From Sulfitobacter sp. SK011 (GTDB taxonomy: Bacteria; Pseudomonadota; Alphaproteobacteria; Rhodobacterales; Rhodobacteraceae), in NCBI RefSeq assembly GCF_003352065.1, contig NZ_CP025803.1, forward strand, positions 2,149,574 to 2,213,573: a stretch of 64,000 nt of DNA, in the 5' to 3' direction. The position numbers were made by a program, and so were the translations under genes. Position 1 is the first letter of the stretch, and the number at the start of each line of letters is the position of its first letter. Below the pieces are notes generated by a model. That model ran no database searches, was not told the DNA's origin, and worked only from the letters and a program-made list of their open reading frames with translations. This document shows, piece by piece, positions 59,389-64,000 of this stretch.

Positions 59389-61242
59389 TCAGCCTTTGGG
59401 CTCCCACCACCAAACCTCGGGCATGAAATTCGGGCCATCGCCATAGATCGGCAAGGTTTCGGGGTATTTCATCTGGGCGTCATGCGCGATCAACCCCTCG
59501 TTATATTGCCAGAACGGGATCACATAGCGGCCCGCCGTCAGGACTCGGTCAAGCGCACGCACGGCAGCGGTGAAATCCGTCGCATCGCGCGCCGACAGCA
59601 TCGTGTCGATCAAGGCATCAATCGCAGGTGATTTAACCCCCATCAGATTGCGCGATCCGGGTTGGTCAGCGGCCTCTGAGCCCCAATAGAACTTTTGTTC
59701 ATTGCCGGGGCTCAGCGACAGCGCACGGCGAAAGGTGGTCATGTCGAAGTCAAACTCGTTGGTGCGTGCCACAAACTGCGCATCATCCACTGTTTCGATC
59801 TCGGCCGCGATGCCAAGACGGTTGAGCGCTTGCAGGTACAGCTCGGCGATGGCGAGATCCTGACTGCTGCCTTTTGACATGAGGATCTTGAACGACAACG
59901 GTGCGCCATCCGCGCCGCGCATGGTGCCATCCTTGGCGGAATATCCGGCGGCCTCCAATTGCTTGAGAGCCAACCGGATGCCCGCACGGTTGCGCACTGA
60001 GCCGTCGGCCACAGGCAAAGCGTAGCCGTCGATTGTGCCGGGCAACAACTCATCTGCAAAGGGTGCCAGCAATGACGCGACCTCGGTCGGGGCCGGACCG
60101 GGCTGCATCGCCAGTTGGGAATTGGAATAATAGGACGAAATCCGCGGCAACGCGCCGCCGGTCAATGTCTCGTTGATGTATTCAAAATTGAACGCCGCAA
60201 TCAGCGCATCACGCACCCGCCAGTCGTCAAAAGGTGCACGCCGGGTGTTCATCACAAAACCGGTCATGCCGGATGGCTTTTGATGGGCAAAGCTGGATTT
60301 GACCACGTCACCACGTTCAATGGCAGGAAAGGTGTATTGGCTGGCCCAGGTCTCGGCGTTGAATTCGCGCACCGCCGAAATCTCGCCTGCTTTGAACGCC
60401 TCAAAAAGCACCGCGGCATCGCCGTAAAAATCGATGACGATCTGGTCAAAGTTGTTGGTGCCTTTGCGAAACGGCACATCGACCCCCCAATAATCTGCGT
60501 TCCGGTCCAGCACCACTTGCCGACCCGCCTGATAGTCGCGGACGACGTAGGGGCCAGAGCCAATCGGGATCTCAGCCAGCGGGGCATTGGCAAAATCCTT
60601 GCCATCCCACTGGGCCTTGGAAAGGATCGGGCGCATGCCTGCCAAAAGCGCCAACTCACGGTTGTCGGTGTTGAAGGTGAACCTGACAGAACGCGGGCCG
60701 GTTTGTTCAATCTTTTCAATCTGCGACCGCAGCCCGTGGTATTTTGGGTGCCCAACAGTGCCGAGCGTGTCGTAGGAAAAAATCACATCTTCAACCGTAA
60801 CGGGAGAATCGTCGGAAAAGCGGGCGTCCTCCCGCAACGTGAATTCGACCCAGGACCGGTCATCGGGTGTCTCAACCGATTCGGCCAAAAGACCATAAAG
60901 AGCAAACGGTTCATCCCAGGATCGGCCCATCAGGCTCTCGTGGGTGAAGAATGACAACTGCCATGGCACCGTGCCTTTGCGCACGAACGGATTGAGGCTG
61001 TCAAAGCCGCCCGTATTGCCAAGGGTGATCTTGCCGCCCTTGGGGGCATCGGCGTTCACATAAGGCAATGACACAAAATCAGGTGGTAGGGCAGGGTCAC
61101 CGTACATAGATATCCCATGTTGAGGTTCTGCCGCCGCCATCGCACCCCAGAGAATCAGTGAAGAAACGCCCGCAACGCACCGCATCTTTTGGAAAATATT
61201 TATTGCCATTATTGCAACAATCCCGCTCAGCCCTTGTTTCAT
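59389..61242 (-). CDS. ABC transporter peptide-binding protein, YejA-like
   Basis: The 617-residue periplasmic solute-binding protein (SBP_bac_5 family) has a signal peptide, then ISMYGDPALPPDFVSLPYVN and the phrase APKGGKITLG of the YejA group. Family landmarks FTLREDARFSDDSPVTVEDVI and a conserved C-terminal WYW-like motif are seen. YejA binds peptides such as microcin C. No permease or ATPase gene follows on this strand within reach: the next gene downstream is arsC. The start at ATG 61242 has GGAT upstream; ATG 61209 is possible, giving a shorter signal. Confidence 0.9.
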   Translation of the reverse strand: MKQGLSGIVAIMAINIFQKMRCVAGVSSLILWGAMAAAEPQHGISMYGDPALPPDFVSLPYVNADAPKGGKITLGNTGGFDSLNPFVRKGTVPWQLSFFTHESLMGRSWDEPFALYGLLAESVETPDDRSWVEFTLREDARFSDDSPVTVEDVIFSYDTLGTVGHPKYHGLRSQIEKIEQTGPRSVRFTFNTDNRELALLAGMRPILSKAQWDGKDFANAPLAEIPIGSGPYVVRDYQAGRQVVLDRNADYWGVDVPFRKGTNNFDQIVIDFYGDAAVLFEAFKAGEISAVREFNAETWASQYTFPAIERGDVVKSSFAHQKPSGMTGFVMNTRRAPFDDWRVRDALIAAFNFEYINETLTGGALPRISSYYSNSQLAMQPGPAPTEVASLLAPFADELLPGTIDGYALPVADGSVRNRAGIRLALKQLEAAGYSAKDGTMRGADGAPLSFKILMSKGSSQDLAIAELYLQALNRLGIAAEIETVDDAQFVARTNEFDFDMTTFRRALSLSPGNEQKFYWGSEAADQPGSRNLMGVKSPAIDALIDTMLSARDATDFTAAVRALDRVLTAGRYVIPFWQYNEGLIAHDAQMKYPETLPIYGDGPNFMPEVWWWEPKG

Positions 61243-61288
61243 TGAGCCAATCCATAACCGGGGATTCTAGTGTAATCAAACTTTTAAC

Positions 61289-61317
61289 TTGGCGCGCGGC
61301 GACTGAGCGCTTATAAG
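61289..61317 (+). promoter_or_regulatory. Promoter of the sRNA candidate
   Basis: TTGGCG (61289-61294) and TATAAG (61312-61317) are separated by 17 bases, the ideal sigma-70 spacing. The expected transcription start is near 61324. It points away from the binding-protein gene and into the hairpin/terminator unit described next. Confidence 0.55.
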
Positions 61318-61323
61318 GAAGTT

Positions 61324-61401
61324 ACTGCTCGATAGGTTTCTTGCCTGTATGAAACCTGCCTCAATAACTTAACGCCAGCTTCGTGCTGGCGTTTTTTTTT
61401 T
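61324..61401 (+). ncRNA. Candidate small RNA of about 78 nt
   Basis: Between the promoter at 61289-61317 and a strong terminator lies a short transcript unit. It has a hairpin AGGTTTC (61334-61340)/GAAACCT (61351-61357) with a 10-base loop, a 13-base single-stranded linker, then the terminator hairpin and ten T residues. No gene on the plus strand precedes the terminator, so it cannot close a protein operon. An ATG with seven codons (61350-61373) lies inside but lacks a ribosome site. Size and layout are those of Hfq-type sRNAs. Confidence 0.6.
61371..61401 (+). terminator. Orphan rho-independent terminator
   Basis: AACGCCAGC (61371-61379) pairs with GCTGGCGTT (61385-61393) around a TTCGT loop: nine base pairs, then ten T residues (61392-61401). 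It is the strongest terminator in the window, yet no protein gene precedes it on this strand. Confidence 0.9.
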
Positions 61402-61506: not shown

Positions 61507-62292
61507 ATGGCCTATACAATCGACCTCAGCGGTAAAACCGCGGTGATCACCGGATCAAACTCTGGCATTGGCCTTGGTATCGCATGGGAACTGGCCCGCG
61601 CCGGGGCGGATATTGTGCTGAACTCTTTCACCGATCATGACGAAGATCACGCATTGGCCAAAAAGATCGCGAACGAGACCGGGGTCAAGGCGCGCTATAT
61701 CAAAGCGGACATGTCCAAGGGCGACCAGTGCCGGCAGTTGATCAAAGACGCAGGTGTCTGCGATATTCTGGTGAACAACGCCGGTATTCAACATGTCGCC
61801 CCGATCCCCGATTTCCCGGTTGAGAAATGGGATGCCATTATCGCGATCAACATGTCATCGGCGTTTCATACCACCGCTGTTGCCCTGCCAATGATGCGCG
61901 ACGCGGGCTGGGGCAGGGTGATCAACATCGCCTCGGCGCACGGGCTGACCGCGTCACCCTTCAAAGCGGCCTATATCGCGGCAAAACACGGTATTGTCGG
62001 ATTGACCAAGACCACGGCCCTTGAGACGGCCAAAGAAGACATCACCTGCAACGCGATCTGTCCGGGCTATGTGCTGACCCCAATCGTGGAAAAGCAAATC
62101 CCCGACACGATGAAGGAATACAACATGACCCGCGAAGAGGTCATCGAAAACGTGATGCTGACCCGCCAGCCCAGCAAGGAATTCGCAACGGTTGAACAGA
62201 TGGGCGGTACAGCGACATTCCTCTGCTCTCATGCGGCGGCTCAGATCACCGGCACGACAATCAGTGTCGATGGCGGATGGACGGCGCTGTAG
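61507..62292 (+). CDS. bdhA: 3-hydroxybutyrate dehydrogenase
   Basis: The 261-residue short-chain dehydrogenase has the cofactor motif TGSNSGIG at 15-22, NNAGIQH near 90, and the catalytic Tyr156-x3-Lys160 in AAYIAAKHG. The segment VLTPIVEKQIPDTMKEYNMTREEV is typical of D-3-hydroxybutyrate dehydrogenase. It interconverts 3-hydroxybutyrate and acetoacetate in polyhydroxybutyrate turnover. AAGGAAAAGACCC precedes ATG 61507. The patatin gene begins directly after its stop. Confidence 0.93.
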   Translation: MAYTIDLSGKTAVITGSNSGIGLGIAWELARAGADIVLNSFTDHDEDHALAKKIANETGVKARYIKADMSKGDQCRQLIKDAGVCDILVNNAGIQHVAPIPDFPVEKWDAIIAINMSSAFHTTAVALPMMRDAGWGRVINIASAHGLTASPFKAAYIAAKHGIVGLTKTTALETAKEDITCNAICPGYVLTPIVEKQIPDTMKEYNMTREEVIENVMLTRQPSKEFATVEQMGGTATFLCSHAAAQITGTTISVDGGWTAL

Positions 62293-63324
62293 ATGGCCAA
62301 AAAACGCATCAATCTCGCGCTTCAGGGGGGTGGCGCGCATGGTGCGTTCACCTGGGGTGCGCTTGATCGGTTGCTTCAAGATGATGACATTGAGATTTGC
62401 GGGATATCGGGCACATCGGCAGGAGCATTAAATGGAGCAGCGCTCAAGGCCGGGATGATCACCGGTGGTCGGGACAGCGCGCGCGAAAATCTGGCGTGGC
62501 TGTGGGCGCAAGTATCAGGCGTCAGTGATTTGCGTATGGCCTATTGGATGGCTCCTTTTGGGGTTGGGGCCTTAAGTCAGGCGATGGAATATTCCTTGCC
62601 ACAGGCGCTGTCGAACACCCTGACCAGTATCACGTCGCCCTATGCCTACGGGCCGTTCTACCGCAATCCGCTGTCCGATATCGTGGCAAAGTTTGACTAT
62701 GAGAAAGTGTGCAACAGGATTGGTCCCTTGCTGTTTGTCTGCGCCACGCGGGTGCGCAATGGCAAGATCAAGGTTTTCAGTGGCGATGAAATCACCCCCC
62801 AAGCCTTGATGGCATCGGCCTGCCTGCCAACCGTATTTCAGGCCGTTGAGATTGACGACCCCAGCACCGGGCGCCGCGAAGCATTCTGGGATGGAGGATA
62901 TACCGGGAATCCCGCGCTATTTCCCTTTTTTGGCAATGATTTGCCCGACGATATCGTGGTGATCAACATCAATCCACTGGAGCGCGACAGCATCCCCAAG
63001 ACACCGCAACAGATCCAGAACCGGATCAACGAGATCAGCTTTAATTCAAGCTTGCTGCGAGAACTGCGCGCCATCGAATTTGTGCAACGATTGCTGGACG
63101 ATGGCACAATCCCGCAAGGAAAGATGGCGCGGGTCAATGTTCACATGATCGCAGATGATGCGCTGATGGAACAATTGTCAGTGGCAACCAAGATGACACC
63201 AAACCCAGCGGTCATTGCCAGCCTCAAAGAAGCAGGGTTCAACGCGGCGGATCAGTTTCTGGCCAATCATGGCCAGGATATCGGCAAGCGCAGCTCCACT
63301 GATCTGCCGGGCATGTTCAGTTGA
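62293..63324 (+). CDS. Patatin-like phospholipase family protein
   Basis: The 343-residue protein has the patatin fold: the oxyanion loop GGGAHG at 12-17, the nucleophile Ser42 in GISGTSAG, and the Asp of the dyad in FWDGGYTGNP near 199. It lacks a signal peptide, so it acts inside the cell. It starts on the base following the bdhA stop and must be co-translated. Patatins hydrolyse lipids; next to bdhA it might act on polyhydroxybutyrate or its granule lipids, which is inference. The 3' end overlaps the convergent DUF502 gene by 8 bases. Confidence 0.92.
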   Translation: MAKKRINLALQGGGAHGAFTWGALDRLLQDDDIEICGISGTSAGALNGAALKAGMITGGRDSARENLAWLWAQVSGVSDLRMAYWMAPFGVGALSQAMEYSLPQALSNTLTSITSPYAYGPFYRNPLSDIVAKFDYEKVCNRIGPLLFVCATRVRNGKIKVFSGDEITPQALMASACLPTVFQAVEIDDPSTGRREAFWDGGYTGNPALFPFFGNDLPDDIVVININPLERDSIPKTPQQIQNRINEISFNSSLLRELRAIEFVQRLLDDGTIPQGKMARVNVHMIADDALMEQLSVATKMTPNPAVIASLKEAGFNAADQFLANHGQDIGKRSSTDLPGMFS

Positions 63325-64000
63325 CGGTTTCTTCCGTCTTCTGCTGTTCCTTGGCTTTGACGTTTTCCACCAATTTCAGCAGATCCTGCTGTCCATTCGG
63401 ATCAGGCAAGCCGCTTGGGTAGACAAGCCCGGCTGAAATCACCAGTTTCGCGGAATCCTCAACGCTCATGTCCAGTTCAATCACGTCTTTCTTGGGGACA
63501 AACAGCAAAAAGCCGGACGTAGGGTTGGGCGTGGTAGGTAAAAAGACCGACATCACCTCGCCCGACGGGTCCGATTTTTCGGCCACTTCGCCCTTGGCAC
63601 TGGTCGATATGAACCCAAGCGCCCAGATGCCCCGCCGTGGGTATTCGATCAGACACGCCGTTTCAAAGCTGCGCTCGGACTGGGCAAAGATCGTCTCGGA
63701 AATCTGTTTGATCCCTGAATAGATCGTGCGCACCACCGGGGTGCGTTCAACAAGGCTTTCCGCGAACCTGATAAAAGAGCGGCCCAAGAGGCCCTTGGCG
63801 GTCCAGCCGACGATGATGGTAAAGATCAAAAAGATCACAACGCCAAGGCCGCGCACGTTGATCTGCGACGACGGATCGAGGCCAAAGAAGTCCTGAATCA
63901 TCCGGTCGGGGTGATAGGCCTGGGGCACCAGCGGCAACACCCAGCCGTCGATCCAGCCGACCACCGTCCAGATCAGCCACATGGTCAGGCCAACCGGCGC
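63317..64000 (-). CDS. DUF502 family membrane protein, partial at the window edge
   Basis: The frame enters from beyond the right edge and ends at 63317. Its first visible residues, PVGLTMWLIWTVVGWIDGW, lie inside the usual first helix of DUF502 proteins, so the N-terminus (about 15-25 residues) is missing. The ATG at 63982 is internal. Landmarks are VRGLGVVIFLIFTIIVGW (second helix) and ERTPVVRTIYSGIKQISETI, with the family's hairpin. Function is unknown. Confidence 0.9.
   Translation of the reverse strand, partial: APVGLTMWLIWTVVGWIDGWVLPLVPQAYHPDRMIQDFFGLDPSSQINVRGLGVVIFLIFTIIVGWTAKGLLGRSFIRFAESLVERTPVVRTIYSGIKQISETIFAQSERSFETACLIEYPRRGIWALGFISTSAKGEVAEKSDPSGEVMSVFLPTTPNPTSGFLLFVPKKDVIELDMSVEDSAKLVISAGLVYPSGLPDPNGQQDLLKLVENVKAKEQQKTEETVN

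Follow-up and report, generated by a model that had tools for sequence, protein, structure and literature searches.

A near-invariant small RNA gene of Rhodobacteraceae with a conserved complement in the leader of the division and cell-wall operon

Known small RNAs of the dcw leader and the present gene

In Rhodobacter sphaeroides, the leader of the dcw (division and cell-wall) operon yields a small RNA, UpsM, which is 206 nt long, starts 268 nt before mraZ and is reported to be the most abundant sRNA of this bacterium, transcription continuing into mraZ about once in 100 events (PMC5089854). Cleavage of UpsM by RNase E leaves a product of 130 nt (PMC6238624), and another small RNA, StsR, binds both UpsM and the dcw leader, leading to RNase E cleavage (PMC11354728, PMC8307010). 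Here, we describe a gene for a different small RNA, located in a 64,000-nucleotide stretch of the genome of Sulfitobacter sp. SK011 (hereafter, the window, meaning the whole of the DNA that was analysed), that appears to read the same leader. StsR (RSs0827 of R. sphaeroides) is, like the present sRNA, an orphan; it is 72 nt long and binds UpsM and the dcw leader (PMC8307010, PMC11354728, PMC8625941), as the present sRNA is predicted to do. The two differ in sequence, in locus and in leader site, and also in their control, which is exerted by RpoHI/RpoHII in the case of StsR (PMC8307010), whereas the present gene has a promoter of the CTTGG/TATAA type. UpsM itself (RSs0682), that is, the terminated dcw leader (PMC5089854), would be the partner RNA; unlike the present sRNA, it has no independent gene, and it bears the complement of the latter.

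Several other described RNAs come into comparison. Intergenic 60 and Intergenic 134 of Paracoccus denitrificans (80 and 84 nt) have homologues across Rhodobacteraceae; the former has the highest reads among the 16 transcripts of Table 1 in that report, and the latter lies in the same context as a candidate from R. sphaeroides (PMC5107571). Compared by description, both appear to differ from the present sRNA in their range, which is reported to extend to Sphingomonadales for Intergenic 60 and to other groups for Intergenic 134 (PMC5107571), whereas the strong matches to the present sRNA in our sample of the class are confined to Rhodobacteraceae. SorY (RF02651), another R. sphaeroides sRNA, has a similar terminator loop, but the present sRNA scores 18.7 bits with its model, below the gathering score of 111, and is no member of that family. 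No family of Rfam 15 reaches its gathering score in the window, the other best sub-threshold scores being those of RyhB (20.5 of 55) and JA04 (20.5 of 81). The published R. sphaeroides list comprises 79 sRNAs (PMC8625941). Our literature search, which covered texts other than the supplementary lists for R. sphaeroides and Paracoccus, found no description of the sequence or the locus as an sRNA gene; those lists may contain the transcript. The first-pass annotation of the window, made from the sequence, had called the RNA undescribed, and within the bounds of Rfam and this search, the label holds. Nor did the search find any RNA other than StsR described as pairing with the dcw leader. What is new is the partner, the 5' leader of the dcw operon, for which the complementarity described below makes a well supported case.

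Architecture and conservation of the gene

The gene lies on the plus strand, and the predicted transcript of ~76 nt spans 61324..61399, with both ends placed from the sequence; the start was set at the first base of an invariant block, 7 nt past the -10 element, so that the predicted 5' end reads ACUGCUCG. The promoter consists of a -35 hexamer, TTGGCG (61289-61294), with the family -35 motif CTTGG at 61288-61292, and a -10 hexamer, TATAAG (61312-61317), separated by a 17-bp spacer. An A/T-rich element visible in the alignment, TCAAACTTTTAA (61276..61287), adjoins the -35 on the upstream side and could be an UP element or the site of a regulator. The promoter scan does not list this promoter because it accepts only -10 elements ending in T, and the present one ends in G; the terminator is the top-listed match of the terminator scan. 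Within the transcript, a 7-bp hairpin, AGGUUUC-UUGCCUGUAU-GAAACCU (61334..61357), with arms AGGTTTC at 61334-61340 and GAAACCT at 61351-61357 in the DNA, is followed by an A/U-rich linker (61360..61370) and an intrinsic terminator (61371..61401), in which a 9-bp stem (61371-61379/61385-61393) runs into ten T (61392-61401), the first two of these belonging to the stem. The linker is a possible Hfq site and, along with the poly-U tail, accounts for all the Hfq-relevant features of the sequence. The 76-nt strand folds with -24.8 kcal/mol, better than 200 of 200 shuffles (z -5.6); a wider segment of 122 nt folds less strikingly (z -2.1, with 6 of 200 shuffles equally good). All these elements, the promoter pair with its exact spacing, the 7-bp hairpin and the 9-bp terminator with a ten-T tail, had been picked out in the first-pass annotation and are borne out, and the broader proposal made there, of a self-contained regulatory RNA of about 78 nt from near 61324, is supported by the comparative evidence, namely, conservation and terminator covariation.

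The neighbouring protein-coding genes are also disposed largely as the annotation had stated. To the left, on the opposite strand and starting at 61242, is a gene for a 617-aa solute-binding protein (59389..61242; SBP_bac_5, PF00496, E 1.6e-67), and to the right, on the plus strand, a gene for a 261-aa short-chain dehydrogenase (61507..62292; PF13561/PF00106, E 2.4e-51), the start of which at 61507 is separated from the T run by 105 bases rather than the 106 originally given. The former is presumably yejA-like and the latter we take to be BdhA, both names deriving from the first-pass annotation. Beyond the dehydrogenase gene, the genes for a patatin-like phospholipase (62293-63324, plus strand) and a DUF502 protein (63317-63982, minus strand) share 8 bp at their 3' ends.

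The first-pass annotation had pointed to related genomes as the place to look for conservation, and there it is extensive, well above what chance would give. A 131-base query finds the sRNA sequence in every one of the 58 genomes sampled from the genus and in none of 40 from other families. Family-wide, the sRNA is present in 289 of the 295 sampled genomes of Rhodobacteraceae, that is, in 288 of 294 genera, mostly once per genome. When the six family genomes that lack a match were searched again at E 0.1, nothing was found in four, and the weak matches in the remaining two (L097 and L098) both fall in the dcw leader, not in an sRNA. A covariance model matched 15 of 190 genomes of the class; three of these, all from the family, score above 100 bits, and the other twelve, which come from other families and score 25-35 bits, lack all three of the core strings looked for and are probably terminators. 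A scan of viral contigs with a 45-nt core yielded no match.

For closer comparison, 92 loci were examined: 30 of the genus (the window's own included), the 29 best of other genera, 30 from among the weakest and 3 from Cereibacter/Luteovulum. In this set, where the weak loci were picked by eye and where the best-match loci bias the outcome toward identity and the weak loci against it, nt 1-39 of the sRNA are identical to those of the window in 84 of the 92, the remaining eight having 1, 1, 1, 2, 3, 6, 8 and 11 mismatches in ungapped comparison; the flanks on both sides of the sRNA diverge in the alignments. The promoter is recognizable at most of these loci, with CTTGG inside the expected stretch in 73 of the 92 and CTTG in 9 more (neither in 10), TATAA at the -10 place in 64 and an upstream CAAACTT in 65. 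At 87 of the 92 loci, the sRNA is preceded by the solute-binding-protein gene on the opposite strand.

Covariation was assessed in an alignment of 44 sequences (43 rows distinct), composed of the 23 distinct forms found among the first 59 loci, the three sequences from Cereibacter/Luteovulum and 18 weak loci, the other 12 of the 30 being left out. Both stems had been named in the first-pass annotation as candidates for covariation, and this was found for one of them: in the terminator stem, 8 of the 9 pairs show double-sided changes, 98.5% of all stem cells are paired, and 0 of 500 shuffles reach the covariation score. The hairpin stem, with 99.4% of cells paired, is nearly invariant and shows no covariation; because it barely varies, covariation neither proves nor disproves it. 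These patterns indicate that selection acts on the RNA, the most conserved letters of which lie in its 5' half. As far as the sequence goes, the locus has what an independent sRNA gene is expected to have, a promoter of its own and an intrinsic terminator, with no conserved reading frame.

Complementarity of the sRNA to the dcw leader

A search of the strain's 4.19-Mb genome with 14 nt of the sRNA recovered, besides the sRNA itself, a second exact match and a match with a single mismatch. The second exact match (G000:C1:2818449-2818462, outside the window) is situated ~0.25 kb upstream of mraZ and in the opposite orientation to that gene, so the dcw leader bears the complement. At the centre of this complementarity are the hairpin loop and 3' arm, nt 19-36 of the sRNA (UGCCUGUAUGAAACCUGC, 61342..61359), the predicted main pairing segment, which is a perfect complement of GCAGGUUUCAUACAGGCA in the strain's own leader; the leader segment opposite nt 20-27 reads CAUACAGG.

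The mraZ loci were gathered by Pfam PF02381 alone because selection on the result was to be avoided; one was obtained from 18 of the 19 genomes searched in the genus and from 10 of the 12 searched in other families. Among the 18 same-genus leaders, the longest contiguous complement to the 41-nt core of the sRNA measures 18 nt in twelve leaders, 17 nt in one, 12 nt in four and 11 nt in one, and in all of them it falls within nt 19-36. The 10 leaders from other families have 5-9 nt, and none of the 10 reaches 10 nt. Mononucleotide-shuffled leaders, 900 in number, give no more than 10 nt, and 264 stretches taken from the window no more than 9 nt; with the reversed or the same-sense core, the 18 same-genus leaders give at most 8 nt. 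The 20 second sites from other genera, picked among the listed 16-mer matches and thus not an unbiased sample, are all upstream of mraZ, 19 of them exact and one with a mismatch. Two results speak against the pairing. In the 27 genomes where the sRNA is weak or was not detected, a complement to the window's core of at least 10 nt is present in only 19 leaders, and 8 fall below 10 nt, one of these being cut by a contig end. The leaders of Luteovulum azotoformans and Cereibacter johrii have an A-C mismatch inside the long helix.

According to the duplex prediction, pairing extends beyond the main segment to two further ones: nt 2-8, CUGCUCG (61325..61331), would pair with the leader island CGAGCAG and nt 12-18, GGUUUCU (61335..61341), with AGAGAUC, with two G-U pairs, alongside nt 19-36 with GCAGGUUUCAUACAGGCA. 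The cores of the islands occur in the order CATACAGGC, AGATCC, CGAGCA in all 18 same-genus leaders and in none of the 10 from other families; the same order is found in 18 of the 20 selected leaders and in 8 of the 27 from genomes with a weak or undetected sRNA. Most of the Rhodobacteraceae dcw leaders listed for L151-L200 have the third island continuing as CGAGCAGACATCCCCCCAGGTG, past the pairing reach of the sRNA.

The energies are less telling. Predicted duplexes range from -39.0 to -48.5 kcal/mol for the same-genus leaders (n=18) and from -21.2 to -39.1 for those of other families (n=10), so that the ranges touch. The strain's own leader, at -44.5, compares with a mean of -31.1 and a best of -44.6 for 1000 shuffled sRNAs; among 530 stretches of the window, only two that overlap the sRNA itself beat -44.5, and the best other reaches -39.6. 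The duplex energy alone is only moderately extreme and not decisive. The trans-covariation test is mixed: seven genomes combine an altered sRNA body with an mraZ upstream region that could be read, and of their own sRNAs, three (G198, G323, G126) pair better than the window's sRNA does and four (G112, G253, G155, G114) pair worse, the leader of G114 being cut by a contig end. The leader sites are predicted to be about half unpaired (0.49 and 0.53, against 0.43 for the whole leader). The sRNA nt 9-11 and 37-39 are nearly invariant though mostly outside the predicted pairing, and invariance of this degree, even outside it, points to something besides the duplex with the dcw leader that also constrains the sRNA. 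Direct pairing of the sRNA with the dcw leader and UpsM appears highly likely.

Possible action on UpsM and competing readings

Carrying the published 268-nt 5' UTR over to the leader of C. johrii, a close relative, places the long site at nt 54-71 and the start of CGAGCAG at nt 107. The end of the 206-nt UpsM then falls just past a predicted terminator hairpin, and the RNase E cut, transferred from R. sphaeroides by way of the 130-nt product of UpsM, would come near nt 76/77, between the paired segments. The mechanism that we favour is as follows. A trans-acting sRNA of ~76 nt would pair through its conserved body with the dcw leader and hence also with UpsM; the hairpin loop and 3' arm would form the long helix near the 5' end of the leader, after which nt 12-18 and nt 2-8 would pair with the two islands farther downstream. 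Beside the long helix, an unpaired stretch of the leader would remain, holding the putative RNase E cut, and the most likely consequence of pairing would be altered access of RNase E to this stretch, which would set the levels of UpsM and dcw mRNA.

We give a probability of roughly 0.7 to the reading in which a trans-acting sRNA pairs with the dcw leader and UpsM and alters RNase E processing, setting the UpsM/dcw mRNA level. It is built on the gene structure, the conservation and the ordered complementarity, all of which were shown computationally; we infer transcription, Hfq binding, the outcome for RNase E and the effect on cell division. As to the outcome in particular, an effect on RNase E processing or on leader stability seems the most likely one, with somewhat better than even chances, because the pairing is near the cut and StsR provides a precedent. 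The sRNA probably helps to set the activity of cell-division genes, and it would be a concrete partner for the long dcw leader and for UpsM processing. The near-invariance of the first 39 nt of the sRNA at loci from many genera, together with the conserved complement in the dcw leader, suggests that the family as a whole, and not R. sphaeroides in particular, has RNA control of division as a basic feature.

The alternative that survives best reverses the direction of control: UpsM, being in large excess, would act as a sponge that titrates the sRNA, whose real targets would be other mRNAs, and growth-linked dcw transcription would then silence the sRNA. Such a role fits the abundance of UpsM and its read-through into mraZ of ~1 in 100 (PMC5089854), as well as the sRNA being more invariant than pairing with one co-evolving site needs. 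A weak point against it is that the 14-mer search of the strain's genome, with its one exact dcw match and one single-mismatch match, revealed no second conserved complement, and we regard it as less likely than not. Elements of this alternative and of regulation through the dcw leader can be joined in a scheme that we put forward tentatively and hold for somewhat doubtful: the leader would be a junction for two family-wide sRNAs, StsR for stress and stationary phase and the present, growth-linked one, which would control RNase E cleavage at the site flanked by its own pairing segments, with UpsM titrating the sRNA in turn. If this is true, the sRNA would be a missing partner in target-dependent UpsM processing, and the two RNAs would form a mutual switch for cell division across the family.

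The first-pass annotation had also considered that the RNA might be an attenuating leader of bdhA, its terminator governing read-through into the dehydrogenase gene. The same-strand bdhA downstream of the sRNA at 72 of the 92 loci, at a median of ~117 bp past it (range 49-941), could speak for this, but at 20 of the 92 loci the sRNA persists although the flank, read for up to ~1.5 kb, contains no match to bdhA. The constant linkage expected of a cis attenuator is thus lacking, and the sRNA is therefore not part of bdhA; moreover, the invariant body of the RNA has its conserved complement in the dcw leader. We consider attenuation very improbable. The role in carbon storage, which the annotation had floated as its own speculation, gained no support, the conserved complement sitting in the dcw leader elsewhere in the genome.

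Less probable still is a short peptide as the product. The open frame that ATGAAACCTGCCTCAATAACTTAA forms from 61349 would encode MKPASIT, but among the 44 aligned sequences this end is found in 20, whereas 14 run open into the terminator, 8 end otherwise and 2 have no ATGAAACC start, and third codon positions are no less fixed than the first two; the candidate was rejected because the frame is not conserved across the alignment.

StsR-like DNA is present in 220 of the 295 family genomes at E 1e-3, and the genome of the strain has no StsR match at this threshold. Identity of the present sRNA with StsR, for which the shared target leader, the similar size (72 nt; PMC8307010) and the wide occurrence in the family could be invoked, has a negligible chance, being refuted by the sequence: the complement of the published probe (PMC11354728) is absent from the subset of sRNA loci checked, three genomes with the exact StsR probe site carry the present sRNA elsewhere, and the 10-nt StsR complement is at nt 14 and 245 of the C. 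johrii leader, not at nt 54-71. As the positions of the StsR complement and of the present site differ, the leader appears to be read by two sRNAs, each at a site of its own. At 296 nt before mraZ, the leader of the strain itself (L104, reverse strand) retains GAGAACGGGACA, which resembles the end of the Cereibacter leader that is complementary to StsR.

One genome (G226) contains three same-sense stretches resembling the 5' half of the sRNA (CTGCYCGATAGGGTTTCTGCC), at ~1005-1034 of L090, 559-592 of L091 and 1023-1034 of L092, which are possibly mimics of the sRNA or repeats. Each stands behind a G/C-rich inverted repeat, and one precedes a frame that we take to resemble PurA.
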